Assembly: GCF_003818135.1 (NCBI RefSeq)
Contig: NZ_RPOH01000026.1
Coordinates: 1 to 64,000 of the forward strand
DNA length: 64,000 nt
Origin: Buttiauxella warmboldiae
Lineage (GTDB): Bacteria; Pseudomonadota; Gammaproteobacteria; Enterobacterales; Enterobacteriaceae
Direction: 5' to 3'
Shown here: positions 31,057 to 49,681 of the stretch, piece by piece
How the letters are laid out: every line of letters starts with the position of its first letter
How positions within the stretch are numbered: position 1 is the first letter of the stretch
Notes under the pieces: generated by a model
What the model was told of the DNA's origin: nothing
Seen by the model: the letters and a program-made list of their open reading frames with translations, nothing else
The model's database searches: none
Made by a program: the position numbers and the translations under genes

Positions 31057-32067
31057 TCAACAAATGCGTGGTAGCGGTTCAGAATGCGGCAAATCTAAGG
31101 TCCGTTTTACCCCATAAAGTCCGGCGACGCGTACGCCTTTACGTTCAACGACATCGCCAATAATTGCCGCCTCTGTGCCGGACGGATGAGCGCGCAGTGC
31201 CGCAAGCACCGCTTCGGCGGATTCACGTTGAACCGCAATCACCAGTTTACCTTCGTTGGCAAAATTCAGCGCGTCAAGGCCGAGCAATTCACACACGCCA
31301 CGCACTGCCGGGTTTAACGGCAGCTGGCTTTCAGCCACTTCCATTCCATATCCACAGGACGCCGCAAACTCATGCAGTACCGCATTCACGCCGCCGCGCG
31401 TGGCATCCCGCAGCGCTTTTACGCCGGGGATCTTCACCAGAGGGGCGATTAGCGGGGCCAGCACCGCACAATCACTGCTTAGCGCCCCTTCCAGACCCAG
31501 CGATTCACGCAGGTTAAGGATAGTCGCTCCGTGGTCACCTAAGGTCCCGCTGACGATCAAGACATCCCCCACGCCGATCTGCTGCGTGCCCCAGTTCAGA
31601 CCTGCGGGAATGGCGCCCATCCCTGCGGTGTTGATAAACAGCTTATCTGCCGCCCCGCGCTGCACGACTTTGGTATCCCCCGTCACCACGGCAATACCGG
31701 CCGCTTTAGCCGTCGCCGCCATACTGGTGACAACACGCTCCAGCGTTTCCAGGGGTAAACCTTCTTCAAGGATAAATCCGCACGATAGCCAGCGCGGCGT
31801 CGCCCCGCAGACCGCAATGTCGTTCGCCGTCCCGCAAATAGCTAATTTGCCGATATCGCCGCCGGGGAAAAACAGCGGGTCGATAACATAGCTGTCGGTG
31901 GAAAAGGCCAGCCGGTCACCGCTGGCCGTCAGTTCAGCCAGCGGCAATCGGGCCTGATCTTCCTGCTCTGACAGCCACGGATTATCAAATGCCTGCATAA
32001 ACAAGTCAGCTACCAGCTTTTGCATTGCCTGGCCGCCGCTGCCGTGGGCGAGTTCTATCGTTTTCAT
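31057..32067 (-). CDS. hypE: Hydrogenase maturation protein HypE
   Basis: ATP-dependent dehydratase of 336 aa that converts a carboxamide on its C-terminal Cys to thiocyanate, the cyanide donor for the Fe ligands of NiFe hydrogenases. The C-terminus ends PLPRIC, so Cys336 is in place. The N-terminus [18 protein letters not shown] and the ATP-binding FSTDSYVIDPLFFPGGDIGKLAI region are conserved. The ATG at 32067 forms an ATGA overlap with the hypD stop; a longer frame to 32343 would run through hypD and is rejected. Confidence 0.97.
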   Translation of the reverse strand: MKTIELAHGSGGQAMQKLVADLFMQAFDNPWLSEQEDQARLPLAELTASGDRLAFSTDSYVIDPLFFPGGDIGKLAICGTANDIAVCGATPRWLSCGFILEEGLPLETLERVVTSMAATAKAAGIAVVTGDTKVVQRGAADKLFINTAGMGAIPAGLNWGTQQIGVGDVLIVSGTLGDHGATILNLRESLGLEGALSSDCAVLAPLIAPLVKIPGVKALRDATRGGVNAVLHEFAASCGYGMEVAESQLPLNPAVRGVCELLGLDALNFANEGKLVIAVQRESAEAVLAALRAHPSGTEAAIIGDVVERKGVRVAGLYGVKRTLDLPHSEPLPRIC

Positions 32068-33188
32068 GCTTCGCACTCCTGGCCGCGATACTGATACCAC
32101 GCGGCACATGCACCTTCGGATGACACCATCAAAGCGCCAAAGGCATTTTGAGGATTGCAGGTTTGGCCGAACATCGGGCACTGATGCGGTTTGCAACGCC
32201 CGGTGAGCACATCGCCACAGCGGGCGAGCGGGTCGTCGTACACCTGCTGCGGCGCGGGTTTGAAATGATCCTCCGCATCGAACTGACGATAGTCTGCGGT
32301 CAGCTGTACGCCGGAATCGCTGATGGTGCCAAGCCCGCGCCATTCCGCATCACCGCGCACGGTAAACACCTCTGAAATCGCCTGCTGCGCCAGGTTGTTT
32401 CCGGCATCCGGCACCACGCGTTTGTACTGATTTTCCACTTTGCTGCGCTGCTGGATTTTTTGCTCCACCAGCATCACCACGCCCTGCAATAAATCCAGCG
32501 GCTCAAAGCCTGCCACCACCAGCGGGCGCTGATGCTGGGTCGCGATAAAATGATAGGCGGCGGTGCCGATCACCATGCTGACATGACCGGGAGCGAGGAA
32601 CGCATCAATGCCGTTATCCGGCTGTTCAAGCAGGCTACGCAACGTAGGGATCAGCGTGATGTGCTGGCAGAAAAAGTAAAAATTAGTGATGCCCTGCGCT
32701 TTCGCCTGTTGCAGCGTGATGGCGGTCGTCGGCATCGTAGTTTCAAAACCGAGGCCAAAGAACACCACTTTTTTATCCAGATTCTGACTGGCTAAAGCGA
32801 GCGCATCCATCGGCGAATACACCACGCGCACATCCGCACCGCGCGCTTTGGCCTGCATCAGCGAGCCGTTTTTACCCGGCACGCGCATCGCGTCGCCAAA
32901 GGTGCAAAAAATCACCTCCGGGTGGCTGGCAATTTCGATACAGGTGTCGATACGCCCCATGGGCAACACGCACACCGGGCAGCCGGGCCCATGAATAAAC
33001 TCAATGTTATCGGGCAGTAACTGGTCGAGACCAAACTTAAAGATAGCGTGTGTATGCCCACCGCAGACTTCCATAATGCGCAGCGGGCGCCGTGCGGTAT
33101 AGGGCAGCTCAGGCGCGCGTTCACGTAACACATCAATAAGCTGCATCACTTTTTCCGGCGCACGATATTCATCAACAAAGCGCATCAT
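32064..33188 (-). CDS. hypD: Hydrogenase maturation protein HypD
   Basis: Iron-sulfur scaffold of 374 aa on which, with HypC, the Fe(CN)2CO unit of NiFe hydrogenases is built. Conserved cysteine patches are visible: CGGHTH (about 42), GPGCPVC (about 70) and the C-terminal 4Fe-4S ligands in [14 protein letters not shown] and CNPQ. Two ATG codons open the gene. The first (33188) overlaps the hypC stop as ATGA; the second (33185) would match the E. coli start. Between hypC and hypE, all with overlaps. Confidence 0.97.
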
Positions 33189-33445
33189 CGACTTTCTTCC
33201 CCAAACAGCAGGCCGCCAACGTCAGGCTCCACTTCAAACATGTTTTGCAATGCGTCGAGCGTGTCGCGAGCTTCGGCTTCATCAATAATAGCCATCGCAA
33301 AACCAACGTGAACCAGCACCCACTGGCCAGGTTGCGCCTCGCCCACCAGCATCAGGTTGACGTCGCGTTTGATGCCGCAGACATCGACTTTGGCGCTACC
33401 GTCTGGCAAACGCTCAACGATTTGGCCCGGAATGCCTATGCACAT
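33185..33445 (-). CDS. hypC: Hydrogenase assembly chaperone HypC
   Basis: Small chaperone of 86 aa that carries the Fe(CN)2CO group with HypD and binds the immature large subunit HycE. The essential Cys2 follows the start Met ([11 protein letters not shown]), and His46 is in [11 protein letters not shown]. It overlaps hypB by 10 bases and hypD by 4. E. coli HypC serves hydrogenase 3, and the location in the FHL cluster suggests the same pairing here. Confidence 0.97.
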
Positions 33446-34299
33446 CGTTCAGCCTCCAGCCAGTTCAGCCATTGTTCCATGCCTTCGCCGCTGGTCGCGG
33501 AAACCAGAATGATTTCAATATCCGGATTCACCTGGCGGGCGTAATCGAGGCATTTATCGACGTCGAACTGTAAGTACGGCAGCAGATCGATTTTGTTGAG
33601 CAGCATGAGGGAAGCCGCAGCAAACATATGGGGATATTTCAGCGGTTTGTCTTCGCCTTCGGTAACCGAAAGCACCGCCACTTTATGGCGTTCGCCGAGA
33701 TCAAAACTCGCCGGGCACACCAGGTTACCCACGTTTTCGATAAACAGAATGCCGTTACGTTCAAGCGGCAGGCGCTGCATGGCATCGCGGATCATCTGCG
33801 CATCAAGGTGGCAACCTTTGCCAGTATTCACCTGAATGGCTGGCGTGCCGGTGGCGCGAATACGTTCCGCGTCATTCACCGTTTGCTGATCGCCTTCAAT
33901 AACCGCGCAAGGTACATTACCGTGCAGGCGTTTTAAGCTTTCGGTCAGCAGCGTGGTTTTACCGGAGCCTGGGCTGGAAACCAGGTTCAGCACCAGCTGT
34001 TGCCGTTTAGCAAATTGTTCGCGGTTATACACGGCGAGCTGGTTGTTCTTATCGAGCACGTTAAGTTCGATTTCCAGCATCCGGCGCTGCGTCATACCGG
34101 GCGCGTGGGTGCCCGCCGCGCCGTGACCGTAATGCAGGTCACCCTGATCGTCGGCAGTGGGGGCAAATTTCATGCCGGTGATTGGCGTCAGCGCTCGCGC
34201 GGCTGGCGCAAAAGGCGCACTACGGAAACCGGAGTGCGGGTTGCGCTCATCGCCTTCTATATACAGGTTGCCTTCAGCACAACCACAGGTGCTACACAT
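33436..34299 (-). CDS. hypB: Hydrogenase nickel incorporation GTPase HypB
   Basis: GTPase of 287 aa that inserts nickel into hydrogenase precursors with HypA. The N-terminal nickel site MCSTCGC is present, and the P-loop SSPGSGKT is at about 108-115. Further conserved segments are [21 protein letters not shown] and NKIDLLPYL. It has no long His-rich stretch, as in E. coli. It overlaps the end of hypA by eight bases. Confidence 0.97.
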
Positions 34300-34890: not shown

Positions 34891-35346
34891 ATGAACATTT
34901 GGGAACTGAGCGAAAAAGCCGAATACATTGCCGACAAGCACCAGCGCTTGCTTACGCAGTGGCAGCAATACTGCAATACGTTGATTCAGGGCATCACCCT
35001 TTCTAAAGCCAGGCTGCATCACGCGGTAGGCTGCAACCCTGATGATTCCCTGCGCTTCTTCTTATTTGACCATTTCATTATTAACGTGCGCCTCGCCGAA
35101 GGCTTTAACAGCCATACCATTGAATACTATGTCGAAAAACGTAGCGGCGAAGACAGAGTCCTGATTGCCAAAGCGATGCTTGATGACGAAGGCCGCATCG
35201 ACAACAGCATCAGTAACCGTGACCGCGAAAACGTGCTCGATCATTACCTCGAAAAAATTCGTCCGGTCTATGAAAGCCTGTACAGCGCAGTGAACAGCGA
35301 TACCCCAGTGTCGATGGGTCAACTGCAGCAAAGTGCTCAGGCCTGA
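34891..35346 (+). CDS. hycA: Formate hydrogenlyase regulatory protein HycA
   Basis: Negative regulator of FHL genes, 151 aa (153 in E. coli). In E. coli HycA counteracts FhlA, probably by protein contact. The conserved stretches are MNIWELSEKAEYIADKH, GITLSKARLHHAVGC and FNSHTIEYYVE. No DNA-binding motif is evident, in line with the family. It is first in the hyc operon, 37 bases after a sigma-54 promoter. Confidence 0.95.
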   Translation: MNIWELSEKAEYIADKHQRLLTQWQQYCNTLIQGITLSKARLHHAVGCNPDDSLRFFLFDHFIINVRLAEGFNSHTIEYYVEKRSGEDRVLIAKAMLDDEGRIDNSISNRDRENVLDHYLEKIRPVYESLYSAVNSDTPVSMGQLQQSAQA

Positions 35347-35359
35347 TTGCTCCTCTGGG

Positions 35360-35382
35360 TGTCGAAAACTGTCGAAACGACA
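35360..35382. promoter_or_regulatory. Candidate FhlA site between hycA and hycB
   Basis: TGTCGAAACGACA at 35370-35382 is a TGTC-N5-GACA palindrome, preceded directly by another half, TGTCGAAAAC, at 35360-35369. It matches the motif at 34760-34772. E. coli also has an FhlA activating sequence between hycA and hycB that serves the hyp operon. Confidence 0.6.
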
Positions 35383-35431
35383 GGCTTCGGCACGGTTTCG
35401 TCAAAAATGATGATGCTTTAAGGAACACCTG

Positions 35432-36037
35432 GTGAACCGCTTTATTATCGCCGACTCCAAACTCTGCATGGGTTGCCATACCTGCGAGGCGGCCTGCTCT
35501 GAAACGCACCGCCTGCACGGCCTGCAATCCATGCCGCGCCTGAAAGTGATGCGTGACGCGAATGATTCCGCGCCGCAAATGTGCCATCACTGCGAAGATG
35601 CGCCCTGCGCGGGCGTTTGCCCGGCTAACGCTATTACTCGCATCGATGGCGCGGTACAGCTTAATGAAAGCCTCTGCGTCAGCTGCAAACTGTGCGCCAT
35701 CGCCTGCCCGTTCGGTTCGATTGAATTCTCCGGCAGCCGTCCTATCCATATCCCGGCAAATGCCAACAGCCCGAAGGCACCACCAGCCCCTCCCGCACCT
35801 GCTCGCGTCAGCTCGCTAATCGACTGGGTGCCCGGCATTCGCGCCATTGCGGTGAAATGCGACCTGTGCAGTTTCGATGAAAATGGCCCGGCGTGTGTGC
35901 GCACCTGCCCGACCAAAGCATTGCGCGTGGTTGATAACCACGATATTGCCCAATCAAGCAAGCGCAAACGTGAACTGACCCTGGGCGCGACGCCTGGCGA
36001 TCTCACCCTGTTTACCCAGCCGAAGGTGAAAAAATGA
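35432..36037 (+). CDS. hycB: FHL electron-transfer subunit HycB (4Fe-4S)
   Basis: Ferredoxin-like protein of 201 aa that passes electrons from formate dehydrogenase FdhF to hydrogenase 3. Four cysteine clusters for 4Fe-4S centres are visible: CMGCHTCEAAC, CHHCEDAPCAGVC, CVSCKLCAIAC and CDLCSFDENGPACVRTC. It starts with GTG at 35432 with AAGGA upstream. A Pro-Ala linker (PKAPPAPPAPAR) precedes the last cluster. The stop overlaps the hycC start (ATGA). Confidence 0.96.
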   Translation: MNRFIIADSKLCMGCHTCEAACSETHRLHGLQSMPRLKVMRDANDSAPQMCHHCEDAPCAGVCPANAITRIDGAVQLNESLCVSCKLCAIACPFGSIEFSGSRPIHIPANANSPKAPPAPPAPARVSSLIDWVPGIRAIAVKCDLCSFDENGPACVRTCPTKALRVVDNHDIAQSSKRKRELTLGATPGDLTLFTQPKVKK

Positions 36038-37842
36038 GTGCTTTTATCCTGATTCATTGGGCGCTGATGGGATTTGTGCTAAGCGCGGTGCTGGCAGGTA
36101 TCACGGCCTTTAATAAGCCGATTAGCGGTTTTATTGCTGGGATCGGCGGAACCATCAGCTCGATCATGGTTTTACTCGCCGGTTTCAATGCCTTAACTGG
36201 CTTTACCGGTATGGCGCAAGTCTGGCAGCTGCATGTACAGCTTAACGCGTTTAACGGCGTGTGGCTGGTGACGCTGGCTCTGCCTGGCCTGTTCATCTCT
36301 TTGTTTAACATCGACTGGCATCGTCATCACGCCATTAAAGCGAACGGCTTGCTGGTGAACCTGGTGATGGCGGCAGCGGTAGCGGCACTGGTTGCGGATA
36401 ACCTCGGCATGCTGGTGGTGCTGGCGGAAATCGTGGCGTTGAGCGGCTACTTCCTGACGGGCTGCCAGAAATCCGGCCAGCTTTGGTTTGCGCTGGGCCG
36501 CCTGGGTACGATGCTGCTGGCGGTGGCCTGCGGGTTACTGTGGAAACAGTACGGCACGCTGAGCTATGCCGAACTACACCAGATGACCAACGGCGCACCA
36601 ATCAGCTCCGTAGTCTGGCTGCTGAGCCTGGTCGGTTTTGGCCTGCTTGCAGGCATTATTCCGCTGCATGGCTGGGTCCCGCAAGCACACGCCAACGCTT
36701 CTGCTCCGGCAGCCGCGCTGTTCTCCGCCGTGGTGCTGAAAATTGGCCTGTACGGCATCATGAGTTTCTCGCTTATCAGCAACGTCATGCCGTTATGGTG
36801 GGGCATTTTAGTCGTAGTTCTGGGGATAATTACTGCGTTTATCGGCGGCCTGTACGCGCTGATGGAGCACAACATCAACCGCCTGCTGGCTTATCACTCG
36901 CTGGAAAACATCGGCATTATTCTGCTCGGCCTGGGCTGTGGCCTGATGGGGCTTGCGCTAAACGAATCAACGCTGGTGGCGCTCGGGATGGTGGGTGGCC
37001 TGTATCACCTGTTCAACCATAGCCTGTTCAAAACCACGTTGTTCCTCGGCGCTGGCGCGGTCTGGTTCCGTACCGGTCATCGCGATATCGAAAAGCTCGG
37101 TGGGATTGGCAAACGTATGCCGCTGATTGCTATCGCCATGCTGGTGGGTTTAATGGCGATGGCTGCACTGCCTCCGCTCAACGGTTTTGCCGGTGAGTGG
37201 GTCATTTACCAGTCCTTCTTCCACCTCGGCACGTTGCCGCTGTTTATTGCACATTTCTTAGGGCCGCTGTTGGCTGTAGGCCTGGCGATTACCGGCGCGC
37301 TGGCGGTGATGTGTATGGCGAAGGTTTATGGTGTGACTTTCCTCGGCGCGCCTCGCACCCCAGAAGCTGAAAACGCGACCCCGGCACCTTTCCTGATGAG
37401 CCTGTCCGTGGCAGCGCTGGCCGCCTGTTGTGTGATTGCCGGGGTTGCCGCTCCGTGGTTGATTCCGCTACTGCAAAACGCGATTCCGCTGCCGCTGCAA
37501 ACCGCGAATACCACCGTTTCACAACCGATGATTACCCTGCTGCTGATTGCCAGCCCGCTGCTGCCCTTCATTCTGATGGTGATGTTCCGTGGCGACCGTC
37601 TGCCAAACCGCACACGCGGCACGGCCTGGGTCTGCGGTTACGATCACGAACAGGCGATGGTGATTACGGCGGGCGGTTTTGCTCAGCCAGTGAAAGCGGC
37701 GTTCGCGCCGCTGCTGAAACTGCGCAAAACCCTGAACCCGGTGAAGTGGGTGCCTGGCTGGCAGTGTGATTGCCTTGCCGGTACGTTCCGTCGCCTGGCG
37801 ATGATCGAACTGGCGGTGTTGCTGGTTGCGGTTTGCGCTTAA
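36034..37842 (+). CDS. hycC: FHL membrane subunit HycC (NuoL/M/N-like)
   Basis: Large inner-membrane subunit of hydrogenase 3, 602 aa (608 in E. coli), homologous to the antiporter-like subunits of complex I. About 14-16 hydrophobic segments are present, with the conserved stretch HGWVPQAHANASAPAAALFSAVVLKIGLYG in the proton-channel region and the Lys in LFNHSLFKTTLFLGAGA. It anchors the soluble arm to the membrane with HycD. Confidence 0.96.
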   Translation: MSAFILIHWALMGFVLSAVLAGITAFNKPISGFIAGIGGTISSIMVLLAGFNALTGFTGMAQVWQLHVQLNAFNGVWLVTLALPGLFISLFNIDWHRHHAIKANGLLVNLVMAAAVAALVADNLGMLVVLAEIVALSGYFLTGCQKSGQLWFALGRLGTMLLAVACGLLWKQYGTLSYAELHQMTNGAPISSVVWLLSLVGFGLLAGIIPLHGWVPQAHANASAPAAALFSAVVLKIGLYGIMSFSLISNVMPLWWGILVVVLGIITAFIGGLYALMEHNINRLLAYHSLENIGIILLGLGCGLMGLALNESTLVALGMVGGLYHLFNHSLFKTTLFLGAGAVWFRTGHRDIEKLGGIGKRMPLIAIAMLVGLMAMAALPPLNGFAGEWVIYQSFFHLGTLPLFIAHFLGPLLAVGLAITGALAVMCMAKVYGVTFLGAPRTPEAENATPAPFLMSLSVAALAACCVIAGVAAPWLIPLLQNAIPLPLQTANTTVSQPMITLLLIASPLLPFILMVMFRGDRLPNRTRGTAWVCGYDHEQAMVITAGGFAQPVKAAFAPLLKLRKTLNPVKWVPGWQCDCLAGTFRRLAMIELAVLLVAVCA

Positions 37843-37852
37843 GGAGCCTGAG

Positions 37853-38779
37853 ATGAATACCCTTTTCTTTTCGTTGATTCAGGCGCTGGTTTTGTTTGCC
37901 GTCGCGCCGCTGTTGTCTGGTATTACCCGCGTCACTCGCGCCCGTATGCACAACCGCCGTGGGCCTGGCGTACTGCAGGAATATCGCGACCTGTTTAAAT
38001 TATTTAGCCGCCAAAGCGTGGCCCCAGCCGCCTCCGGCTGGGTGTTCCGCCTGATGCCGTTTGTGATGGTTGGCGTGATGCTGACGATTGCCACCGCTCT
38101 GCCGGTGGTAACGCTGTATTCACCGCTGCCGTCGCTGGGCGATTTGATAACGCTTATCTATCTGTTCGCCATCGCCCGTTTCTTCTTTGCGATTGCGGGT
38201 CTCGACACCGGTAGCCCGTTTACCGCCATCGGGGCCAGCCGTGAAGCGATGTTGGGCGTGCTGGTTGAGCCCATCCTGATTCTGGGACTGTGGGTTGCCG
38301 CGCAAGTGGCAGGTAGCACGCATATCAGCAATATCGCTTCCACCATTTATCACTGGCCAGCCGCACAAAGCTTAACGCTGATCCTCGCGCTCGCCGCCTG
38401 CGCATTCGCCACCTTTATCGAAATGGGCAAACTGCCGTTTGACCTCGCAGAAGCCGAGCAGGAATTGCAGGAAGGGCCGTTGACCGAATACAGCGGCGCA
38501 GGTTTTGCGGTGCTGAAATGGGGGATTTCCCTCAAGCAGCTGGTAGTGCTGCAAATGTTCGTTGGCGTGTTCCTGCCGTGGGGCCAGATGAGCGAATTTA
38601 GCTGGGGCGGCCTGGCGATTGCGCTGGTTCTGGCCGCGGTAAAACTGGTTGCTGGCGTACTGATTATTGCGCTGTTCGAGAACAGCATGGCGCGTTTGCG
38701 CATGCTGGAAACCTCAACGGTTACCTGGGCCGGTTTTGGCTTTGCCTTTTTAGCCTTCGTCTCCTTGCTGGCGGCGTGA
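37853..38779 (+). CDS. hycD: FHL membrane subunit HycD (NuoH-like)
   Basis: Inner-membrane subunit of 308 aa, homologous to NuoH of complex I, that connects the catalytic arm (HycE, HycG) to the membrane. Conserved features are RRGPGVLQEYRDLFKLF near residue 40 and the acidic loop EMGKLPFDLAEAEQELQEGPLTEYSG. The ATG at 37853 follows AAGGAG; a longer frame to 37826 would overlap hycC and is rejected. Confidence 0.96.
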   Translation: MNTLFFSLIQALVLFAVAPLLSGITRVTRARMHNRRGPGVLQEYRDLFKLFSRQSVAPAASGWVFRLMPFVMVGVMLTIATALPVVTLYSPLPSLGDLITLIYLFAIARFFFAIAGLDTGSPFTAIGASREAMLGVLVEPILILGLWVAAQVAGSTHISNIASTIYHWPAAQSLTLILALAACAFATFIEMGKLPFDLAEAEQELQEGPLTEYSGAGFAVLKWGISLKQLVVLQMFVGVFLPWGQMSEFSWGGLAIALVLAAVKLVAGVLIIALFENSMARLRMLETSTVTWAGFGFAFLAFVSLLAA

Positions 38780-38796
38780 TTTAAGAGAATTTATCT

Positions 38797-40506
38797 ATGT
38801 CTGAAGAAAAGATTGGCCAACATTATCTCGCGGCGCTGCATAAGCAATTTCCTCATGCGGTGATCGACGAAGCGTGGCAGACCAAAGACCAAATCACCGT
38901 CACCGTGAAGCTCAATATGCTGCCAGAAGTGGTGGAGTGGCTTTACTACCAGCAGGGCGGCTGGTTATCCGTGCTGTTCGGCAACGATGAGCGCCAGCTG
39001 TGCGGTAACTATGCGGTGTATTACGTGCTTTCCATGGAAAGCGGCGTGAAATGCTGGATTACCGTGCGCGTAGAAGTTGACGCCGACAAACCGGAATTCC
39101 CGTCCGTTACGCCACGCGTACCTGCTGCGGTTTGGGGCGAGCGTGAAGTGCGCGACATGTACGGCCTGCAGCCTGTCGGTCTGCCGGATGAGCGCCGTTT
39201 AGTGCTGCCGGATGACTGGCCAGACGACCTGTATCCGCTGCGTAAAGACAGCATGGATTACCGCCAGCGCCCGGCACCAACCAGCGATCGGGAAACTTAC
39301 GAGTTCATCAACGAACTGGGCAGCAAAAAGAACAACGTGGTGCCGATTGGCCCGCTGCATGTGACAAGCGATGAACCCGGCCACTTCCGCCTGTTCGTTG
39401 ATGGCGAAAACATTATCGACGCCGATTACCGTCTGTTCTACGTCCACCGCGGCATGGAAAAACTGGCTGAAACCCGTATGGGCTACAACGAAGTCACCTT
39501 CTTGTCTGACCGCGTATGTGGCATCTGTGGCTTCGCCCACAGCACCGCCTATACCACCTCAGTTGAGAACGCGATGGGCATCGTGGTGCCAGAACGCGCC
39601 CAGATGATCCGCGCGATTTTGCTGGAAGTAGAACGACTGCACAGCCACCTGCTGAACCTCGGCCTCGCCTGCCACTTCGTCGGCTTCGACTCCGGCTTTA
39701 TGCAGTTCTTCCGCGTGCGTGAGATGTCGATGAAAATGGCAGAAATCCTCACCGGCGCGCGTAAAACTTACGGCCTGAACCTGATCGGCGGGATTCGCCG
39801 CGATCTGTTGAAAGACGACATGATCCAGACGCGCCAGCTGGCACAGCAGATGCGTCGCGAAGTGAAAGATCTGGTCGATATCCTGATGAGCACGCCAAAC
39901 ATCGAACAACGCACCGTCGGCATTGGCCGCCTGGACCCGCAAATCGCCCGCGATTTCAGCAACGTCGGCCCAATGGTTCGCGCCAGCGGCCACGCCCGTG
40001 ACACTCGTGCCGATCACCCGTTTGTCGGCTACGGCCTGCTGCCAATGGAAGTTCACAGCGAAACCGGCTGTGATGTGCTTTCACGCCTGAAAGTGCGTAT
40101 TAACGAGGTGTATACCGCATTGAATATGATTGATTTCGGCCTCGATAACCTGCCTGGCGGCCCGCTGGCGGTAGACGGCTTCACCTATATTCCGAACCGT
40201 TTCGCGCTTGGTTTCTCTGAAGCCCCGCGCGGCGATGATATTCACTGGTCGATGACCGGCGATAACCAGAAACTGTACCGCTGGCGCTGCCGTGCGGCGA
40301 CCTACGCCAACTGGCCAACGCTGCGTTACATGCTGCGCGGCAACACCGTTTCTGATGCGCCACTGATCATCGGCAGCCTGGACCCTTGCTACTCCTGTAC
40401 CGACCGCATGACGGTGGTGGATGTACGCAAGCGCAAGACCAAAGTGGTGCCGTACAAAGAGCTTGAGCGCTACAGCATTGAACGTACTAATTCGCCGCTG
40501 AAATAG
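38797..40506 (+). CDS. hycE: Hydrogenase 3 large subunit HycE
   Basis: NiFe catalytic subunit of 569 aa, the E. coli length. The N-terminal 170 residues are NuoC-like, the rest NuoD-like. The nickel ligands are Cys241, Cys244, Cys531 and Cys534 (RVCGICGFAH and DPCYSCTDR). After Arg537 comes a 32-residue C-terminal extension starting MTVVDVRKRK that HycI should remove once nickel is in place, as in E. coli. It produces H2 with electrons received through HycG, HycF and HycB. Confidence 0.98.
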   Translation: MSEEKIGQHYLAALHKQFPHAVIDEAWQTKDQITVTVKLNMLPEVVEWLYYQQGGWLSVLFGNDERQLCGNYAVYYVLSMESGVKCWITVRVEVDADKPEFPSVTPRVPAAVWGEREVRDMYGLQPVGLPDERRLVLPDDWPDDLYPLRKDSMDYRQRPAPTSDRETYEFINELGSKKNNVVPIGPLHVTSDEPGHFRLFVDGENIIDADYRLFYVHRGMEKLAETRMGYNEVTFLSDRVCGICGFAHSTAYTTSVENAMGIVVPERAQMIRAILLEVERLHSHLLNLGLACHFVGFDSGFMQFFRVREMSMKMAEILTGARKTYGLNLIGGIRRDLLKDDMIQTRQLAQQMRREVKDLVDILMSTPNIEQRTVGIGRLDPQIARDFSNVGPMVRASGHARDTRADHPFVGYGLLPMEVHSETGCDVLSRLKVRINEVYTALNMIDFGLDNLPGGPLAVDGFTYIPNRFALGFSEAPRGDDIHWSMTGDNQKLYRWRCRAATYANWPTLRYMLRGNTVSDAPLIIGSLDPCYSCTDRMTVVDVRKRKTKVVPYKELERYSIERTNSPLK

Positions 40507-40517
40507 ACGGAGTCACC

Positions 40518-41063
40518 ATGTTTAACTTCATCAAAAAAGCCATTAAAGGCGGCGTGGCCACCGAGTCGTACCCGCTTCAACCGATCGCCGTGGACCCGAA
40601 TTTCCGTGGCAAACCGGAACACAACCCGCAGCAATGTATCGGCTGTGCGGCCTGCGTGAACGCCTGTCCTTCCAACGCCCTGACGGTGGAAACCGATCTG
40701 ATGGCGGGGCAACTGGCGTGGACTTTTAACCTGGGGCGCTGCATTTTCTGCGCGCGCTGTGAAGAAGTCTGCCCAACGGCAGCCATCAAGCTTTCTCAGC
40801 AATATGAGCTGGCGGTGTGGAACAAGGCGGATTTCCTGCAGCAGGCGCACTTTGATCTGTGCGACTGCCGCCAGTGCGGCAGGCCTTATGCCGTGCAAAA
40901 AGAGATTGATTACGCGATTGCGCTGCTTGAGCACAACGGCAACAAACTTGCCGAAGCGCACCGCGCCTCGTTCGAAACCTGCCCCGAATGCAAACGTAAG
41001 CTTTGCCTGGTCTCTTCCGACCAGATCGACCTTAGCCGCCAGATAAGAGAGGTGCGCTCATGA
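40518..41063 (+). CDS. hycF: FHL iron-sulfur subunit HycF (NuoI-like)
   Basis: Two-cluster ferredoxin of 181 aa, related to NuoI, that carries electrons within the soluble arm of FHL. The 4Fe-4S motifs [12 protein letters not shown] and [12 protein letters not shown] are present. The C-terminal part has extra cysteine pairs ([18 protein letters not shown]) that may bind a further metal. The stop overlaps the hycG start as ATGA. Confidence 0.95.
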
Positions 41064-41827
41064 GTATGTTACTCGGCCCGCGCGACGATAAAGGCATGCC
41101 AGTGCCGATGACGGTGGATGAGTCCATCAGCCTGATGAAAACGTCGCTGCTGAAAAAAATCAAACGCTCCGCCTATGTTTACCGCGTTGACTGCGGTGGC
41201 TGTAACGGCTGCGAAATCGAAATTTTCGCCACCCTTTCACCACTTTTCGATGCAGAACGCTTCGGGATCAAAGTGGTTCCGTCGCCACGTCATGCGGACA
41301 TTTTACTGTTTACCGGCGCTGTGACTCGCGCTATGCGTTCCCCCGCGCTACGCGCATGGGAATCAGCGCCGGACCCAAAAATATGTATTTCCTACGGCGC
41401 ATGCGGCAACAGCGGCGGCATCTTCCACGATCTGTATTGCGTCTGGGGCGGCACCGATAAAATCGTCCCGGTAGACGTTTATATTCCAGGCTGCCCGCCA
41501 ACGCCTGCGGCAACGCTGTACGGCTTTGCTATGGCATTAGGCTTGCTGGAGCAGAAAATCCACGCCCGCGAAGCCAGCGAAATGGATGCTCAACCGGCGC
41601 AGATTCTGCACCCGGATATGGTTCAGCCATTGCGTGTGCGCATCGACCGCGAGGCACGTCGTCTGGCAGGCTATCGCTATGGCCGCCAGATTGCCGACAG
41701 CTATATGGAAAACCTGACCGCCGGAAACGGCAGCGTCCAGCAGTGGCTGGCCCACGAGAACGATCCGCGTCTGACTGAAATCGTCAGCAATCTGGAAGCG
41801 CTGGTGAAGCAGGAGCGCGTGCCATGA
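41060..41827 (+). CDS. hycG: Hydrogenase 3 small subunit HycG (NuoB-like)
   Basis: Small subunit of 255 aa that holds the 4Fe-4S cluster next to the NiFe site. Cluster ligands are in [22 protein letters not shown] and YIPGCPPTP. The length is that of E. coli HycG. The last 70 residues are less conserved. It overlaps hycF and hycH by four bases each. Confidence 0.96.
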
Positions 41828-42234
41828 GCGAGTCGGTGGTGTTTTGCCAGCTTAGCCGTAAGTTTGTCGATGAAAACGACAACACGCCGAGCGATGCGCA
41901 ACAGGTGGTCTATTACAGCCTGGCAATCGGCCACCATCTGGGCGTTATCGACTGCCTGAAAGAGAACCTGGTTTGCTCGTATGAGCCTTACAAAGCGTGG
42001 ATTGCCACGCTTGAAGAGGGCAGCGAAGCGCGGCGCAAAATGGAAGGGGTGCCGCGCTACGGTGAAATCGTTATCGACCAAAGCCATGTGGTTTTGCTGG
42101 CGAAAGCGTTTGATGCCGCCAAACCAACGCAAACTGAACAGCAGCAAGAGTGGAGCCAGGAATTGCTCGATATGCTGCAAGCTATTCAACAAGAACCCGC
42201 TATTTATTTGATGGTTCGGAGGCGTTATGACTAA
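41824..42234 (+). CDS. hycH: Formate hydrogenlyase maturation protein HycH
   Basis: Accessory protein of 136 aa needed for making active hydrogenase 3 in E. coli but not part of the final complex. It begins [22 protein letters not shown] and keeps the family patch [16 protein letters not shown]. Its exact action is unknown. It overlaps the start of hycI by eight bases. Confidence 0.95.
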
Positions 42235-42700
42235 TGTTTTGCTGTGCGTCGGCAACAGCATGATGGGCGACGATGGCGCAGGCCCATTACTTGCCGAGAA
42301 ATGCCAGGCCGCCCCGCAAGGCGACTGGGTGGTTATCGACGGCGGCAGCGCGCCGGAAAACGATGTGGTCGCGATTCGTGAATTGCGCCCGGATAGATTG
42401 CTGCTGGTGGATGCGACGGATATGGGCCTCAATCCTGGCGAAATCCGCATCATCGACCCGGACGACATCGCGGAAATGTTTATGATGACCACCCACAATA
42501 TGCCGCTCAACTACCTGATCGATCAGCTGAAAGAAGACGTTGGCGAGGTGATTTTCTTGGGTATTCAGCCCGATATCATCGGCTTCTACTACCCAATGAC
42601 CGACGCGGTAAAAGCGGCAGTTGAGACGGTATATCAAAGCCTGGCTGGCTGGGAAGGAAAAGGCGGTTTCGCACAGCTGGAAGCGCCTGAATTTGAGTGA
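42227..42700 (+). CDS. hycI: Hydrogenase 3 maturation endopeptidase HycI
   Basis: Nickel-dependent protease of 157 aa that removes the C-terminal peptide of HycE after nickel insertion. The metal-sensing acidic and histidine residues are in NSMMGDDGAG (Asp16), LLLVDATDMG and TTHNMPLNYL. The start has GGAGG upstream. It is the last gene of the hyc operon; a toxin-antitoxin pair follows on the other strand. Confidence 0.96.
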   Translation: MTNVLLCVGNSMMGDDGAGPLLAEKCQAAPQGDWVVIDGGSAPENDVVAIRELRPDRLLLVDATDMGLNPGEIRIIDPDDIAEMFMMTTHNMPLNYLIDQLKEDVGEVIFLGIQPDIIGFYYPMTDAVKAAVETVYQSLAGWEGKGGFAQLEAPEFE

Positions 42701-42779: not shown

Positions 42780-43064
42780 TTATAGGTAGTGGATATTGAG
42801 CGAGATCTTTGCGCCGCAGGCTGAGGCATAACGCTTGAGCATTTTGACGCTGGCGCTAAGCGGTTTTTTCTCAAGACGGCTAATACCCAACGCGTTGGTA
42901 CCAAGCTTGTTTGCCAGCTCCATTTGCGTCAGTCCTGCTCTCTCACGCATTTCATATAATGCCTGAATTAACAGGATCTCCTGGTCGGCTTCATGGTATG
43001 CCTGCACGGACTCATCATCGCAAAGCATTCTTGTTTTCAGTTCATCAAGACAGACAGGTTTCAC
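42780..43064 (-). CDS. XRE-family antitoxin
   Basis: Predicted antitoxin of 94 aa with a helix-turn-helix in its C-terminal half (MRERAGLTQMELANKLGTNALGISRLEKKPLSASVKMLKRYASACG), similar to HigA-like partners of Gp49-type toxins. Its ATG overlaps the toxin stop (ATGA), so the two genes are translated together. The pair sits between hycI and hydN, where E. coli has the asc genes. Confidence 0.8.
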   Translation of the reverse strand: MKPVCLDELKTRMLCDDESVQAYHEADQEILLIQALYEMRERAGLTQMELANKLGTNALGISRLEKKPLSASVKMLKRYASACGAKISLNIHYL

Positions 43065-43507: not shown

Positions 43508-43563
43508 CTGTCATCCCACCCCGGATCAATGCGCCACGCCCGGAATCACGCTAGTTTCAAAGT

Positions 43564-43579
43564 TGGCACACTTTATGTA
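43564..43579 (+). promoter_or_regulatory. Probable sigma-54 promoter of hydN-fdhF
   Basis: TGGCACACTTTATGTA has a perfect -24 (TGGCAC) and a weak -12 (ATGTA instead of TTGCW). It lies 42 bases upstream of the hydN ATG. Together with the palindrome upstream it suggests FhlA control of the whole hydN-fdhF-hypF unit. Confidence 0.6.
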
Positions 43580-43620: not shown

Positions 43621-44169
43621 ATGATGAACCGATTCATCATTGCTGATTCAAGCAAATGTATTGGCTGTCGCACTTGCGAAGTGGCCTGTGTCGTGTCCCA
43701 CCAGGAAGCGCAGGATTGCGCCGCATTAACCCCGCAAACCTTCCTGCCACGTATTCACGTGATTAAAGGCGTAAATGTTTCTACCGCGACCATGTGCCGC
43801 CAGTGCGAAGACGCCCCTTGCGCCAACGTCTGCCCGAACGGGGCCATCGCCCGCGAGCATGGCTTTGTCAACGTCATGCAGGAACGCTGCATCGGTTGCA
43901 AAACCTGCGTGGTTGCTTGCCCGTACGGCGCAATGGAAGTGGTTGTGCGTCCGGTTGTGCGCAACAGCGGCGCGGGTCTTAACGTAATGGCCGAAAAAGC
44001 CGAAGCGAATAAATGCGACCTTTGCCACACCCGCGCATCAGGCCCGGCCTGTATGGAAGCCTGTCCAACTAACGCCATTATCTGCGTTGATCGCAACAAA
44101 CTTGAACAAATGAGTGCCGAAAAACGCCGTCGTGCCGCGTTTGATGCCACTTCATCTTTGATTTTCTAA
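43621..44169 (+). CDS. hydN: Electron-transport protein HydN (4Fe-4S)
   Basis: Ferredoxin-like protein of 182 aa, related to HycB, that in E. coli supports formate dehydrogenase activity. Four cysteine groups are visible: CIGCRTCEVAC, CRQCEDAPCANVC, CIGCKTCVVAC and CDLCHTRASGPACMEAC. Two ATG codons open it; GGAGG fits both. It lies 34 bases ahead of fdhF with no terminator between, so they are probably cotranscribed. The C-terminus is a few residues longer than in E. coli (175 aa). Confidence 0.94.
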   Translation: MMNRFIIADSSKCIGCRTCEVACVVSHQEAQDCAALTPQTFLPRIHVIKGVNVSTATMCRQCEDAPCANVCPNGAIAREHGFVNVMQERCIGCKTCVVACPYGAMEVVVRPVVRNSGAGLNVMAEKAEANKCDLCHTRASGPACMEACPTNAIICVDRNKLEQMSAEKRRRAAFDATSSLIF

Positions 44170-44203: not shown

Positions 44204-46354
44204 ATGAAAAAAATTACCAGCGTCTGCCCTTACTGTGGTGCCGGCTGCAAACTGAAACTGGTTGTTGAGAAGAACAAAATTATCCGCGCTGAAGCGGCTG
44301 ATGGCGTGACAAACCAAAATGAACTCTGCCTGAAGGGCTACTACGGCTGGGATTTTCTCAACGACACTAAGCTGCTCACACCGCGTCTGACGCAGCCGAT
44401 GATTCGTTACGAAAAAGGCGGAAAACTTCAGCCAGTCAGCTGGGAAGAAGCCATTAGCTATACCGCTAAACGCCTGAAAGCGATTAAAGAACAATATGGC
44501 CCGCGCTCAATTATGACCACGGGTTCTTCGCGCGGTACGGGTAACGAAACCAACTATGTGATGCAGAAGTTTGCACGCGCCGTGCTGCATACCAACAACG
44601 TCGACTGCTGTGCGCGCGTTTGCCACGGGCCGTCGGTTGCCGGTTTGCAGGTGACGCTGGGAAATGGTGCGATGAGTAACTCCATCGGCGAGATCGAAAA
44701 TTCAAAATGCCTGCTGGTGTTTGGCTACAACTGCGCCGATTCGCACCCGATAGTGGCGCGTCGCGTGATTAAAGCGAAAGAAAACGGCGCAAAAATCATT
44801 GTTTGCGATCCGCGTCGTATCGAAACCGCGCGCATTGCCGATCAACATTTACAGCTGAAAAACGGCTGTAATATGGCGCTGGTGAATGCGTTTGGCTATG
44901 TGCTGCTCGAAGAGAATCTCTACGATCAAGAGTACGTTGCAAAATTCGCCGCAGGTCTGGATGCTTACCGCGAGGTGGTTAAAGGCTACGCGCCAGAAGA
45001 GGTTGAGCACCTGACCGGCGTGCCTGCGCATCAAGTGCGCCAGGCGATGCGCACATTTGCCGCTGCCCCTTCCGCCACCATTATGTGGGGCATGGGCGTG
45101 ACTCAGTTCGGCCAGGCAGTGGATGTCGTAAAAGGGCTTTCAAGCCTTGCGCTGCTGACCGGCAACCTCGGCCGCGAAAACGTCGGCGTTGGCCCGGTGC
45201 GTGGGCAGAACAACGTGCAGGGCGCGTGCGATATGGGCGTGCTGCCCAACCAGTTCCCCGGTTATCAGGATGTGGTTGACCCGCAAGTGCGCGCCAAATT
45301 CGCCAAGGCCTGGGGCATCAACGTCGATGATATGGACGACAAAGTTGGCGTGCGTATTACCGAAGTGCCGCACATGGCAATTCATGACGAGATGAAAGCC
45401 TACTACATCATGGGTGAAGACCCGTTGCAGACCGAAGCCGATCTTGGCCTGGTGCGCAAAGGTTTTGCAGCGCTCGATTTTGTGGTGGTGCAAGACATCT
45501 TTATGACCAAAACCGCGGAAATGGCAGATGTGATTTTGCCCGCCACTTCCTGGGGCGAGCACGGCGGCGTGTTTACCTGTGCCGACCGTGGTTTCCAGCG
45601 CTTTGAGAAAGCCATCGAGCCGAAATACAACGTCAAACGTGACTGGGAAATTATCAGCCTCATCGCCACCGAGATGGGCTACCCAATGCACTACGACAAC
45701 AACCAGCAAATCTGGGATGAACTGCGCGAGCTGTGCCCGCTGTTCTACGGCGTAACTTACGAAAAAATGGGCGATATGGGCCATGTCCAGTGGCCTTGCC
45801 CGACGCTGGATCACCCCGGCACGCCCTATCTGTACAAAGACAGCAAGTTCGATACCCCAACCGGTAAGGGCCAGTTATTTGCCGCCGAGTGGCGCGCGCC
45901 TGCCGAAACGCCGGATGCCGAATACCCGCTGGTGCTCTGTACCGTGCGCGAAGTCGGCCACTACTCCTGCCGCTCGATGACCGGCAACTGCGCGGCACTG
46001 CAAACCCTGGCCGATGAACCCGGCTTTGTGCAGATGAACCCGGCAGACGCTGAAAAGCTCGGCATCAAAGACCAACAGCTGGTGTGGGTCAGTTCACGCC
46101 GCGGCAAAGTGATTAGCCGGGCGCAAGTGAACGAGCGCATCAACCTCGGCTCGGTTTATATGACCTACCAGTGGTGGATTGGCGCGTGTAACGAGCTGAC
46201 GCAGGACAATCTCGACCCGATTTCCAAAACGCCGGAAACCAAGTATTGCGCGGTTAACGTCAGCCAGATTGCCGACCAGCAATGGGCAGAAAACTACGCG
46301 CAGACGACATACAGCAAGATGAAAGCGCGTTTGCGCCAGGCTGTGGAGGTTTAA
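44204..46354 (+). CDS. fdhF: Formate dehydrogenase H, cysteine form
   Basis: Molybdenum (bis-MGD) formate dehydrogenase of 716 aa that oxidises formate to CO2 and feeds electrons to hydrogenase 3. The 4Fe-4S ligands Cys8, Cys11, Cys15 and Cys42 are present. Codon 140 (44621-44623) is TGC, giving DCCARVCHGPS, where E. coli has the selenocysteine codon TGA followed by the same His. No in-frame TGA occurs. The bases after it no longer fold into the full SECIS upper stem. Length matches E. coli (715). It should work without selenium, probably with a lower rate per enzyme. Confidence 0.96.
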   Translation: MKKITSVCPYCGAGCKLKLVVEKNKIIRAEAADGVTNQNELCLKGYYGWDFLNDTKLLTPRLTQPMIRYEKGGKLQPVSWEEAISYTAKRLKAIKEQYGPRSIMTTGSSRGTGNETNYVMQKFARAVLHTNNVDCCARVCHGPSVAGLQVTLGNGAMSNSIGEIENSKCLLVFGYNCADSHPIVARRVIKAKENGAKIIVCDPRRIETARIADQHLQLKNGCNMALVNAFGYVLLEENLYDQEYVAKFAAGLDAYREVVKGYAPEEVEHLTGVPAHQVRQAMRTFAAAPSATIMWGMGVTQFGQAVDVVKGLSSLALLTGNLGRENVGVGPVRGQNNVQGACDMGVLPNQFPGYQDVVDPQVRAKFAKAWGINVDDMDDKVGVRITEVPHMAIHDEMKAYYIMGEDPLQTEADLGLVRKGFAALDFVVVQDIFMTKTAEMADVILPATSWGEHGGVFTCADRGFQRFEKAIEPKYNVKRDWEIISLIATEMGYPMHYDNNQQIWDELRELCPLFYGVTYEKMGDMGHVQWPCPTLDHPGTPYLYKDSKFDTPTGKGQLFAAEWRAPAETPDAEYPLVLCTVREVGHYSCRSMTGNCAALQTLADEPGFVQMNPADAEKLGIKDQQLVWVSSRRGKVISRAQVNERINLGSVYMTYQWWIGACNELTQDNLDPISKTPETKYCAVNVSQIADQQWAENYAQTTYSKMKARLRQAVEV

Positions 46355-46416: not shown

Positions 46417-48654
46417 GTGAATCTTAACGGCGTGATGCTACGCATTCGCGGCAAAGTTCAGGGCGTTGGCTTCCGGCCATTCGTCTGGCAACTGGCGCAA
46501 AAACTCAACCTGACCGGCGACGTCTGCAATGACGGCGCAGGTGTGTTGGTGCGCCTGATGTCGATGCCCGATGCGTTTATCAGCGAGCTTCACGCCCATT
46601 GCCCGCCGCTGGCTCGGATTGATAGCGTTGAGCAATCGACCCTGCAGTGGAACGCTGCCCCGCAGGATTTCACCATCATCCACAGCGCCAGTTGTACGAT
46701 GGATACGCAAATTGTCCCCGATGCGGCAACCTGCCCCGACTGCCTGCGTGAACTTAACGACCCGAACGATCGCCGCTATCGTTATCCATTTATCAACTGC
46801 ACCCACTGCGGCCCGCGTTTCACCATTATTAATGCGATGCCGTATGACCGGCCAAACACGGTGATGGCAGCATTTCCGCTATGCCCGGCGTGCGAAAAAG
46901 AGTACCGCGACCCCATGGATCGCCGCTTCCACGCTCAGCCGGTTGCCTGCCCTGAATGCGGGCCGCAAATCGAATGGCTTTGTGGCGAGCAAAAGTTTGA
47001 GCGCGAAAATGCGTTACAGGCCGCCATTACGGCGTTAAAAGACGGGAAAATCGTTGCGATTAAAGGGTTGGGTGGGTTCCACCTGGCGGTTGATGCACGT
47101 AACGACGCCGCCGTTTCCCGCTTACGCGCCCGCAAACATCGCCCGACAAAACCGCTGGCGGTCATGCTACCGGACTCACAGGGTCTGCCTGCCAATGTGG
47201 TCGCCCAACTCAACACGCCAGCGGCCCCGATTGTGCTAATGGCAAAGTCCGATCTTTGCGGATTAAGCCAATTTATCGCTCCGCATTTAAGCGAAGTGGG
47301 CGTGATGCTGCCCGCCAACCCGCTACAACACCTGCTGCTGCAGGATTTCGGCGGCCCGCTGGTGATGACCTCCGGTAATCTAAACGGCAAACCGCCCGCG
47401 ATGACCAACCAGCAGGCGCTGGCAGAGTTAGCCGCAATTGCTGACGGCTGGCTGCTGCACAACCGCAATATCGTGCAGCGCATGGATGATTCAGTGGTAC
47501 GCGCCGGCGGCGAAGTGCTGCGCCGTGCCAGAGGTTTTGTGCCGGATGCGCTGGCGCTGCCGCCAGGCTTTGAGGCCATACCGCCGATACTTGCGGTTGG
47601 CGCGGATCTGAAAAATACCTTCTGCTTACTGCGCGGTAACCAGGCGGTGCTGAGCCAGCATCTGGGCGACCTTGCAGAAGAGGGCGTTGAACAGCAGTGG
47701 CATAAAGCGCGAAAGCTGATGTGCGAAGCCTATGACTTTACGCCGCAGCAGATCGTTGTTGATGCCCATCCCGGTTACCACAGCGCCCGCATCGGGCAAG
47801 AAATGGGCTTGCCGGTAAGCCGTGTTTTGCACCACCACACCCATGCTGTGGCATGCATGGCCGAACATGGCTGGCCGCGGGAAGGGGGAGACGTGATTGC
47901 GCTCACCCTGGACGGCATTGGTTATGGTGAGAACAACCAGCTTTGGGGCGGTGAATGCTTACGCGTTAATTACCGCGAGTGCGAACATCTCGGCGGCTTA
48001 CCGGCGGTGGCGCTACCGGGTGGTGACCTCGCGGCCAGCCAGCCGTGGCGAAACCTACTCGCTCATTGCGAGGCGTTTGTAGCGAACTGGCAGCAACTCC
48101 CTGAAACCGAGGCGGTACGTGCACAAAACTGGCCGTTACTGGCGACGGCCATTGCGCGTGGAATTAACGCACCTCTCGCTTCCTCCGCAGGGCGATTATT
48201 TGACGCCGCCGCAGCGGCACTGAACTGCGCCCCGCTGCAACAAAGTTATGAAGGCGAAGCCGCCTGCCGCTTTGAAGCGCTGGCGTCGCAAAGCGGCTGG
48301 TGCAACCACCCCGTCACGCTGCCCGTTATCGCCGGCAAGCTGAATTTGGCTACCTTCTGGCGGCAATGGCTAAGCTGGCATGGCAACGCGCCTGCCCGAG
48401 CCTGGGCATTTCATGATGCGCTGGCAAAAGGGTTCGCCGATTTGGCCCGAATTCATGCGCATGAGCGCTCAATTACCACTCTCGTATTCAGCGGTGGCGT
48501 ACTGCATAACCAGCTGCTGCGCCAAAGATTTTCGTACCATCTCGCAGATTTTACCCTGCTCTTCCCGACACTGTTGCCTGCGGGTGACGGTGCCCTTGCG
48601 TTGGGCCAGGCTCTTATTGCCGCAGCCCGTCTCCCCCTTCCTTCACAAGGATAA
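46417..48654 (+). CDS. hypF: Carbamoyltransferase HypF
   Basis: Enzyme of 745 aa that makes carbamoyl-adenylate and passes the carbamoyl group to the HypE C-terminal Cys, the first step of cyanide ligand synthesis. In order: acylphosphatase domain ([17 protein letters not shown]), two zinc fingers (Cys106/109/128/131 and Cys156/159/178/181), a YrdC-like domain ([14 protein letters not shown]) and a Kae1-like domain ([16 protein letters not shown]). It starts with GTG at 46417; I saw no strong ribosome site. In E. coli it follows hydN directly; here fdhF lies between. Confidence 0.95.
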
Positions 48655-48658
48655 AATG

Positions 48659-49681
48659 ATGTTATTGCGTGTTCTTCGTGACCAGCCACGCGCTGCTTTT
48701 CTGCTCGCGGGTTTAGTCGCCGCCAATCTTGCCGCCTGGGCCTGGGCGCTGGTTTCGTTCCACCACAGCACCGCGCTGATGGCGGCAAGTCTGCTGGCAT
48801 GGTGCTACGGCTTACGCCATGCGGTCGATGCCGATCACATTGCGGCGATTGATAACGTGACGCGCAAAATGATGCAGCAGGGAAAACGCCCGTTCGGTAT
48901 CGGCGCCTGGTTCTCACTCGGCCACTCCAGCATCGTGGTGCTGGCATCCGTGGCGATTGCCGCAACGGCAGCAGCCTTCCAGAGCGATATGGACTGGTTT
49001 CATGAGGTTGGCGGGGTGATTGGCACCGCAGTTTCAGCCTGTTTCTTGCTGGCGATGGCGCTGGTCAACCTGGTGATTCTGCATGGCGTATGGCGCAACT
49101 TCCGTCAGTTAAAACGCGGTAAATCCCCCGGCGCTGAAGCGACGGATTTTAACGGCGCTGGCATGATGAGCTGGCTGTTCCGCTCCACGTTCAGGCTGAT
49201 CAACAAAAGCTGGCATATGTATCTGGTGGGCTTTTTGTTCGGCCTGGGCTTTGATACCGCAACGGAAATTGGCGTGCTGGGTATTTCTGCTGCCAGCGCC
49301 TCAAGCGGCATGTCGATGTGGTCGATTCTGGTGTTCCCGGCGCTATTTGCCAGCGGCATGGCGCTGATTGATACGCTCGACAATATGATCATGGTTGGCG
49401 CATATGGCTGGGCGTTTAACAAACCGCAGCGCAAGCTCTATTACAATATGACCATCACCGGCACCTCGGTTGTGGTGGCGCTGTTTATCGGCGGCATGGA
49501 AGCATTAGGGCTGTTAGCCGATAAATTCGACCTGCATACCGGCCTGTGGAAATGGGTTGATGCGCTCAATGAAAACCTCGGTAATGCGGGCTTTATCGTG
49601 GTTGGGCTGTTTATCGCCTGCTGGATTGTGTCGATGCTGAACTATCGCTGGAAAGGGTACGACTCTTTGGTGGTTCGTTAA
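48659..49681 (+). CDS. NiCoT-family nickel/cobalt permease
   Basis: Inner-membrane nickel (or cobalt) transporter of 340 aa, from the HoxN/NixA family, with about eight membrane segments. The signature HX4DH is in segment II (His54, Asp59, His60 in RHAVDADHIAAIDN), with LGHSSIV and GFDTATEIG as further signatures. The second of two ATG codons (48659) is seven bases from AAGGA; the first (48656) is possible. A longer frame to 48380 runs through hypF and is rejected. Position four bases after hypF implies it supplies nickel to hydrogenase 3. E. coli K-12 relies on NikABCDE instead. Confidence 0.9.
   Translation: MLLRVLRDQPRAAFLLAGLVAANLAAWAWALVSFHHSTALMAASLLAWCYGLRHAVDADHIAAIDNVTRKMMQQGKRPFGIGAWFSLGHSSIVVLASVAIAATAAAFQSDMDWFHEVGGVIGTAVSACFLLAMALVNLVILHGVWRNFRQLKRGKSPGAEATDFNGAGMMSWLFRSTFRLINKSWHMYLVGFLFGLGFDTATEIGVLGISAASASSGMSMWSILVFPALFASGMALIDTLDNMIMVGAYGWAFNKPQRKLYYNMTITGTSVVVALFIGGMEALGLLADKFDLHTGLWKWVDALNENLGNAGFIVVGLFIACWIVSMLNYRWKGYDSLVVR

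Follow-up and report, generated by a model that had tools for sequence, protein, structure and literature searches.

A first-pass annotation of the DNA studied here noted that formate dehydrogenase H (FdhF, FDH-H) with cysteine (Cys) in place of selenocysteine (Sec) is known in other bacteria, and such enzymes are indeed in print for Serratia (PMC6004506) and Pectobacterium (PMC7384014). The accessible portion of the latter report describes, in the formate hydrogenlyase (FHL)-2 locus of Pectobacterium atrosepticum, a selenium-free FdhF with Cys140 (ECA1250), encoded next to hydrogenase, hypF and hoxN genes, with Hyf (Hyd-4) as the hydrogenase and no Sec machinery; the enzyme is active, its deletion lowering H2 production about 500-fold, and its authors state that more than half of the species with FHL genes use the Cys form (PMC7384014). 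In Serratia liquefaciens a unit of hydN and a Cys-type fdhF has been described, and the gas product is given as not yet identified in the available text of that study (PMC6004506). Replacing Sec by Cys in the E. coli enzyme lowers its activity about 20-fold, according to the accessible parts of two papers (PMC3349551, PMC6004506).

The gene considered here lies in a stretch of 64,000 nucleotides from Buttiauxella warmboldiae (hereafter the window). Like the Pectobacterium gene, it encodes a selenium-free FdhF with Cys140 and lies by hydrogenase, hypF and hoxN-type genes, but in Buttiauxella the hydrogenase is Hyc, and both Sec machinery and a Sec FdhF are present. As in Serratia liquefaciens, hydN forms a unit with the Cys fdhF, though in a different genus; the fdhF of other Serratia species falls in the same clade as the window gene. 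E. coli FDH-H (PDB 1aa6), for which the role of residue 140 is established, is of the same family and shares the conserved active-site residues. However, it has Sec140 and a SECIS, its gene lies apart from the hyc operon and it groups in the tree with a second Buttiauxella fdhF, whereas the window enzyme has Cys140 and its gene lies near hyc. Pairs of Sec and Cys fdhF genes have reportedly been described in Treponema.

The Cys-type fdhF, its neighbours and a second fdhF

The window fdhF (44204..46354, + strand) is an intact open reading frame for an FDH-H alpha subunit of 716 residues, which matches TIGR01591 with 919.5 bits over residues 7-686 (curated cut-off 666.25) and E. coli FDH-H (1aa6) with 1135.5 bits, at 67% protein identity. 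Codon 140 (44621..44623, + strand), TGA in Sec forms, is TGC by sequence and alignment, as the first-pass annotation had reported, in the context DCCARV-C-HGPSVAGLQ; no in-frame TGA occurs in the reading frame, which hence does not specify a selenoprotein. A sequencing error, such as a miscalled TGA, is ruled out by an in-frame Cys codon at this position in the window's genome and in each of the 11 other Buttiauxella genomes examined. Among the 108 aligned sequences of at least 78% identity (near-duplicates counted), Cys 8, 11, 15 and 42 and Lys44 are kept in all 108, and His141 and Arg333 in 107; these are active-site residues. The sole exception, the Cys-type FdhF of Intestinirhabdus alba (L107:10001-12145), has Cys for His141 and His for Arg333 and, judged by these residues, may be an inactive or altered enzyme.

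Upstream of fdhF, at a distance of 34 bp, lies hydN for an electron-transfer protein (43621..44169, + strand; NF007658 371.6 bits, cut-off 260). On the downstream side are hypF for the hydrogenase maturation carbamoyltransferase (46417..48654, + strand; TIGR00143 900.1 bits, cut-off 466.1) and a gene for a HoxN/NixA-family nickel transporter (48380..49681, + strand; TIGR00802 406.3 bits, cut-off 333.05), the start codon of which is uncertain and the reading frame of which overlaps hypF. The hyc operon, hycA to hycI (34891..42700, + strand), for the hydrogenase-3 part of FHL, was identified by Pfam (HycA), NCBIfam (HycC, HycF) and family matches (HycH, HycI), while hycB, D, E and G are named from gene order only, none having a match above cut-off to a family of its own name. 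Additionally, the minus strand carries fhlA for the formate-dependent activator (28855..30939; NF011958 1314.8 bits, cut-off 830) and hypE, hypD and hypB (31057..34299; family matches). A candidate sigma-54 promoter, TTGGCAC..., was seen by eye before hydN (43563..43579, + strand); it is imperfect at -12, and a scan allowing one mismatch did not report it. Between hycI and hydN, an open reading frame of 127 codons (42911-43294) is 54-58% identical in three Buttiauxella loci, has no NCBIfam or Pfam match and may not be a real gene.

The genome holds a second FdhF gene (C30:96448-98583), 66% identical to the window FdhF, in which a single in-frame TGA is followed by a complete SECIS (Rfam SECIS_2, 83.2 bits), and two more TGA formate dehydrogenase genes, FdnG/FdoG-like, on C67 and C42 (SECIS_3, 84.3 bits). 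Searches for both kinds had been proposed in the first-pass annotation, which rightly allowed for remaining selenoproteins and placed selA and selB about 25 kb away; these genes (17694..20926, + strand) lie at 23 kb, both above cut-off (TIGR00474 608.9 bits, cut-off 267.9; TIGR00475 769.5 bits, cut-off 242.25). A tRNA-Sec (78.9 bits) and selD (456 bits) are also present. The second FdhF gene rules out the window fdhF as the sole fdhF of the genome: the E. coli-type fdhF is a separate gene, and the window gene is not the fdhF of E. coli with a Cys inserted. Since a TGA fdhF, further TGA formate dehydrogenases and the Sec machinery are all present, the window gene is the selenium-free partner in an isoenzyme pair, and each of the 12 Buttiauxella genomes carries one Cys and one TGA copy. 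The search of relatives covered 60 genomes, the window's own included, of which 25 have an FdhF match at E 1e-150; across 369 sampled genomes of the class, a match at E 1e-200 was found only in the window's own genome.

Among the best 80 of the 591 fdhF loci found, those of Buttiauxella are the closest (93-97% identical), and hydN lies immediately 5' of fdhF in 54 and hypF immediately 3' in 49. With hydN-fdhF so common an arrangement, the placement of a Cys form in this island, which had been called notable, is not unusual among the loci examined, and the gene is of a known kind of selenium-free FDH-H that is widespread in E. coli relatives. As 25 of these best 80 loci have none of the other FHL genes searched for nearby, save one weak fhlA match, the partner of FdhF need not always be hydrogenase-3. 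One of the 80, in Providencia, has hyc/hyf-type genes on the downstream side only. In Hafnia, Franconibacter and two Silvania loci (L054, L056, L075, L103), a Cys and a TGA fdhF lie 3-6 kb apart in one FHL island. In the one E. coli strain inspected hydN adjoins hypF across a gap of 152 bp, in which no fdhF remnant was found.

Base pairing and codon use after codon 140

The E. coli-type SECIS has five upper-stem pairs, U17 and a loop GU. The equivalent stretch of the window (44621..44662, + strand), assessed by base pairing, folding and Rfam, has neither the loop motif GGTCTG nor the two foot pairs. Counting from the T of codon 140, three pairs form (18-29, 19-28 and 20-27) and U17 is kept, while positions 15-31 and 16-30 are G-G, leaving the stem short of five pairs; the description of retained upper pairs above two G-G mismatches at the foot is accurate base for base. 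The loop reads GGTTTG, against GGTCTG in Sec forms. The loss of pair 16-30 follows from Gln at residue 149, no codon of which can form it; Gln stands here in 116 of 126 Cys sequences and in five Sec sequences, and His in 27 of 58 Sec sequences. Pair 19-28 is dictated by the protein, pairs 18-29 and 20-27 each rest on one synonymous base, and all three occur together in 34 of 124 Cys sequences.

Across 177 FdhF sequences (53 Sec, 124 Cys; counting near-duplicates but not the two outgroup sequences), all five pairs with U17 and the loop GU are found in 34 of the 53 Sec sequences and in none of the Cys sequences. In a count with duplicates dropped and additional loci included, GGTCTG at bases 22-27 occurs in 55/55 Sec and 1/117 Cys sequences (Raoultella planticola). 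The 19 Sec sequences that fail the E. coli pairing are one from Hafnia and 18 from groups f9, f207, f21, f25, f12 and f6; judged by eye, the sister group (f21, f25, f12, f6) seems to use a different pairing register. The Sec fdhF of f25, f21 and f6 (L136, L138, L139, L174, L134, L146, L150) reads CGGTCTGG, and in G703, G431, G446 and G633 this gene lies at most 20 kb from a divergent selB.

The three pairs and U17 kept in the window would suit descent from an E. coli-type Sec fdhF that was converted to Cys and whose SECIS decayed but can still be recognised, a history that we consider highly improbable. A SECIS_2 match in the window fdhF at a relaxed threshold (34.4 bits against a gathering score of 70; E 1.4e-4 in 2151 bases) and the Sec state of the group that is sister to the clade of the window gene (the island clade, see below) could also be cited for it, but two other Cys copies score close to the window gene (Hafnia 33.9 bits, Shewanella L128 40.2 bits). 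At gathering scores Rfam reports no SECIS in the window, and among four more Cys copies SECIS_2 gave no match for L106 (E <=0.5) or for L125, L126 and L127 (E <=2). Shewanella Sec copies score 34.6 (L114), 44.9 (L140), 41.1 (L141) and 41.1 bits (L129), and sub-gathering SECIS_2 scores were rejected as evidence of relic or function, since Sec and Cys copies overlap. The fold comparison proposed in the first-pass annotation proved uninformative, as Sec and Cys forms are not told apart by single-strand folding energy: z was -0.17 for the window, -1.40 for the second Buttiauxella fdhF, -1.56 for E. coli, 0.00 and -1.37 for Shewanella Sec and Cys, and -1.94 and -2.09 for Hafnia Sec and Cys.

Synonymous codon choice after codon 140 of the window fdhF agrees with the Sec consensus at 4 of 8 codons, where codon usage predicts 2.7 (SD 1.2). 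In all five identity bands of Cys sequences the match exceeds expectation, by 0.4-1.1 of 8 codons, as decay from a Sec gene would have it, and a control over the remaining codons was therefore run. The 320 other codons of the gene show an excess in every band (0.035-0.067 per codon; at the SECIS codons it is 0.036-0.124, the top value coming from 17 near-identical Buttiauxella sequences of one lineage), and the rest of the window gene matches at 126/208 against 106.5 expected. With a like excess over the rest of the gene, the SECIS codons show little beyond general kinship. A SECIS remnant in the sense of the accessible part of PMC1794560, namely Sec-type bases beyond what protein, codon usage and kinship account for, was not found in the window fdhF. 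The decay of an E. coli-type SECIS is further opposed by the separate E. coli-type TGA fdhF of the genome, by the misfit of the sister Sec group to the E. coli pairing and by L157, a Cys gene with a Sec sister (L155), which is seemingly a fresh Sec-to-Cys loss and still has the loop AGGTCT that the window lacks. Thus, of the claim that the SECIS is no longer maintained, the absence of a complete SECIS stands, but the decay of a former one is not supported, given the 4/8 match and the control excess. The genomes of L157 and L155 (G564, G615) are of one genus, and the Cys one is without selB, selD or tRNA-Sec above cut-off.

Ancestral state of residue 140 and proposed role of the enzyme

In a first tree (101 FdhF and 8 outgroup sequences, column 140 masked), the window gene falls inside a clade of 58 sequences, 55 Cys and 3 Sec. 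A second tree (63 sequences, again leaving column 140 out, mixture model, 1000 ultrafast bootstraps; support as bootstrap/SH-aLRT) places it with Cys FdhF of FHL loci in the island clade (100/100; 27 Cys and 4 Sec sequences), the sister of which is a Sec group (97/96). The four Sec sequences are from Shewanella and nest beside Shewanella Cys copies (97/90, 100/100, 99/96). Forcing the 27 Cys sequences together, a group chosen after the tree was seen, costs 86.6 log units (AU p 3e-46). Since a Cys clade without the Shewanella Sec genes is thus rejected, either Sec was regained in Shewanella or it was ancestral in the whole island clade, lost in parallel four to five times and kept by Shewanella alone; the range in this count stems from one weak deeper branch of the clade (89/55). 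The same clades emerge from each of three parts of the protein, although the Shewanella group reaches only 30 SH-aLRT in the middle one, and no chimeric Shewanella fdhF was seen across them.

A two-state model allowing Cys-to-Sec change reaches lnL -18.82, against -27.05 for the best irreversible model over the roots tried, which argues against repeated parallel loss. Five of six rate settings give a Cys island ancestor (probability 0.996-0.999); with Cys-to-Sec change near zero that ancestor is Sec (Cys 0.02), at lnL -41.2 against -19.2. Unless reversal is close to zero, the Cys state of the window's clade is therefore old. The tree asked for in the first-pass annotation accordingly places the window's Cys form and its island ancestor, but gives the ancestor shared with the sister Sec group a Cys probability of anywhere from 0.05 to 0.80.

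The constant rates of these models are violated in that lineages without selB must give up Sec. A selB above cut-off is present in 39 of 52 genomes tested, and is lacking in 11 of 14 with Cys-only FdhF, but in only one of the 36 that have a TGA copy (G573, in which a contig end is close to tRNA-Sec and fdhF); the remaining two have no FHL-type FdhF. That several Cys lineages are without selB above cut-off lends weight to parallel loss, as does the ease of a Sec-to-Cys change, which takes one base and occurs elsewhere in the tree (L157; L160/L162).

Taken together, the sequence, the second gene, the Sec machinery, the tree and the synteny make it very probable that the window fdhF is a working selenium-independent FDH-H in a hydN-fdhF-hypF unit near the hyc operon. 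Cys140 would replace Sec as the molybdenum ligand, formate would be oxidised to CO2 and the electrons would pass to hydrogenase-3 to yield H2; this activity, the partnership with hydrogenase-3 and a division of labour with the Sec copy are inferred. The Cys state would have been inherited from an old Cys clade rather than arising by recent loss in an E. coli-type fdhF, and the DNA after codon 140 would behave as ordinary coding sequence. As the Sec isoenzyme is also present, FHL could form with or without selenium. The roughly 20-fold drop in activity of the Cys variant and the rate setting with Cys at 0.02 (lnL -41.2 vs -19.2) weigh against this reading.

Sec-type fdhF of Shewanella within the Cys clade

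An FHL-type FdhF at E 1e-200 is present in 11 of 146 genomes of the Shewanellaceae (group f6); five carry the island type, four of them with Cys and Sec copies (G694, G1063, G647, G1147) and one with a Sec copy only (G755). TGA fdhF with a complete SECIS was found at L114 (10418-10459), L140, L141 and L129; all four have the five pairs, U17 and AGGTCT, with paired changes relative to E. coli (15-31 is C-G or U-A for G-C, and 18-29 is C-G for U-A). All five island-type genomes have selB above cut-off (a broken gene in G1147), and tRNA-Sec and selD are present in the three tested; Sec decoding of these fdhF genes is predicted. In G1147 both fdhF copies (L195, L204) and selB are broken across frames, possibly through sequencing errors in the assembly.

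The Sec copy of S. fodinae and of G694 comes after hyc/hyf-type genes and hydN, with a further hydN-fdhF(Cys) pair 12-18 kb away; in one genome of the related lineage f10, a Cys copy occupies the spot that holds the Sec copy in these two. The Sec copy of G755 has hydN and no hyc-type gene within the 19 kb examined. We lean towards duplication of a hydN-fdhF(Cys) pair, after which one copy would have gained TGA together with a new SECIS, whether through substitutions or a very short gene conversion; in some Shewanella species this copy lies by the hyc/hyf-type operon. The conserved protein stretch SVAGL already dictates a large part of the SECIS loop and stem, so that few changes, most of them synonymous, would turn a Cys gene with Arg or His at position 149 into a Sec gene. 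In the tree, the stem branch is 0.19 for the Sec copies against 0.054 for the Cys copies, as expected of a changed copy and contrary to parallel loss. Against a functional SECIS in the Sec copies stand SECIS_2 scores of 34.6-44.9 bits, no higher than those of some Cys copies, and folding without signal.

Fourteen sites set both other Sec groups apart from the island Cys sequences; the Shewanella Sec copies are Sec-type at four of them and the Shewanella Cys copies at none (with variation at one of the four), which fits convergence or retention. Retention is what an ancestral Sec kept by Shewanella alone would leave, and we regard that history, with its parallel losses elsewhere, as plausible though somewhat doubtful. 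Around the TGA (bases 360-450) the S. fodinae Sec gene is 0.82 identical to the E. coli Sec gene and 0.70 to its own Cys copy, and a short gene conversion may therefore have occurred.

According to the accessible part of a 2006 survey, formate dehydrogenases (FdhA) show seven Sec-to-Cys and no Cys-to-Sec changes (PMC1794560), and a 2026 review, in its accessible text, lists FdhA among the few families with Sec-to-Cys change (PMC13188914). In a partial literature search that took in few subscription papers, we recognised no published report of a Cys-to-Sec change in FdhF. The notable part of these data is the Shewanella fdhF and not the window gene, which is one more selenium-free FDH-H kept beside a Sec isoenzyme. 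The Cys/Sec pair of Buttiauxella constitutes a natural system for asking what selenium buys in H2 production, and the Shewanella Sec genes within a well-supported Cys clade make Cys-to-Sec reversal directly testable, which bears on the 2006 claim as stated in the accessible part of that survey (PMC1794560).
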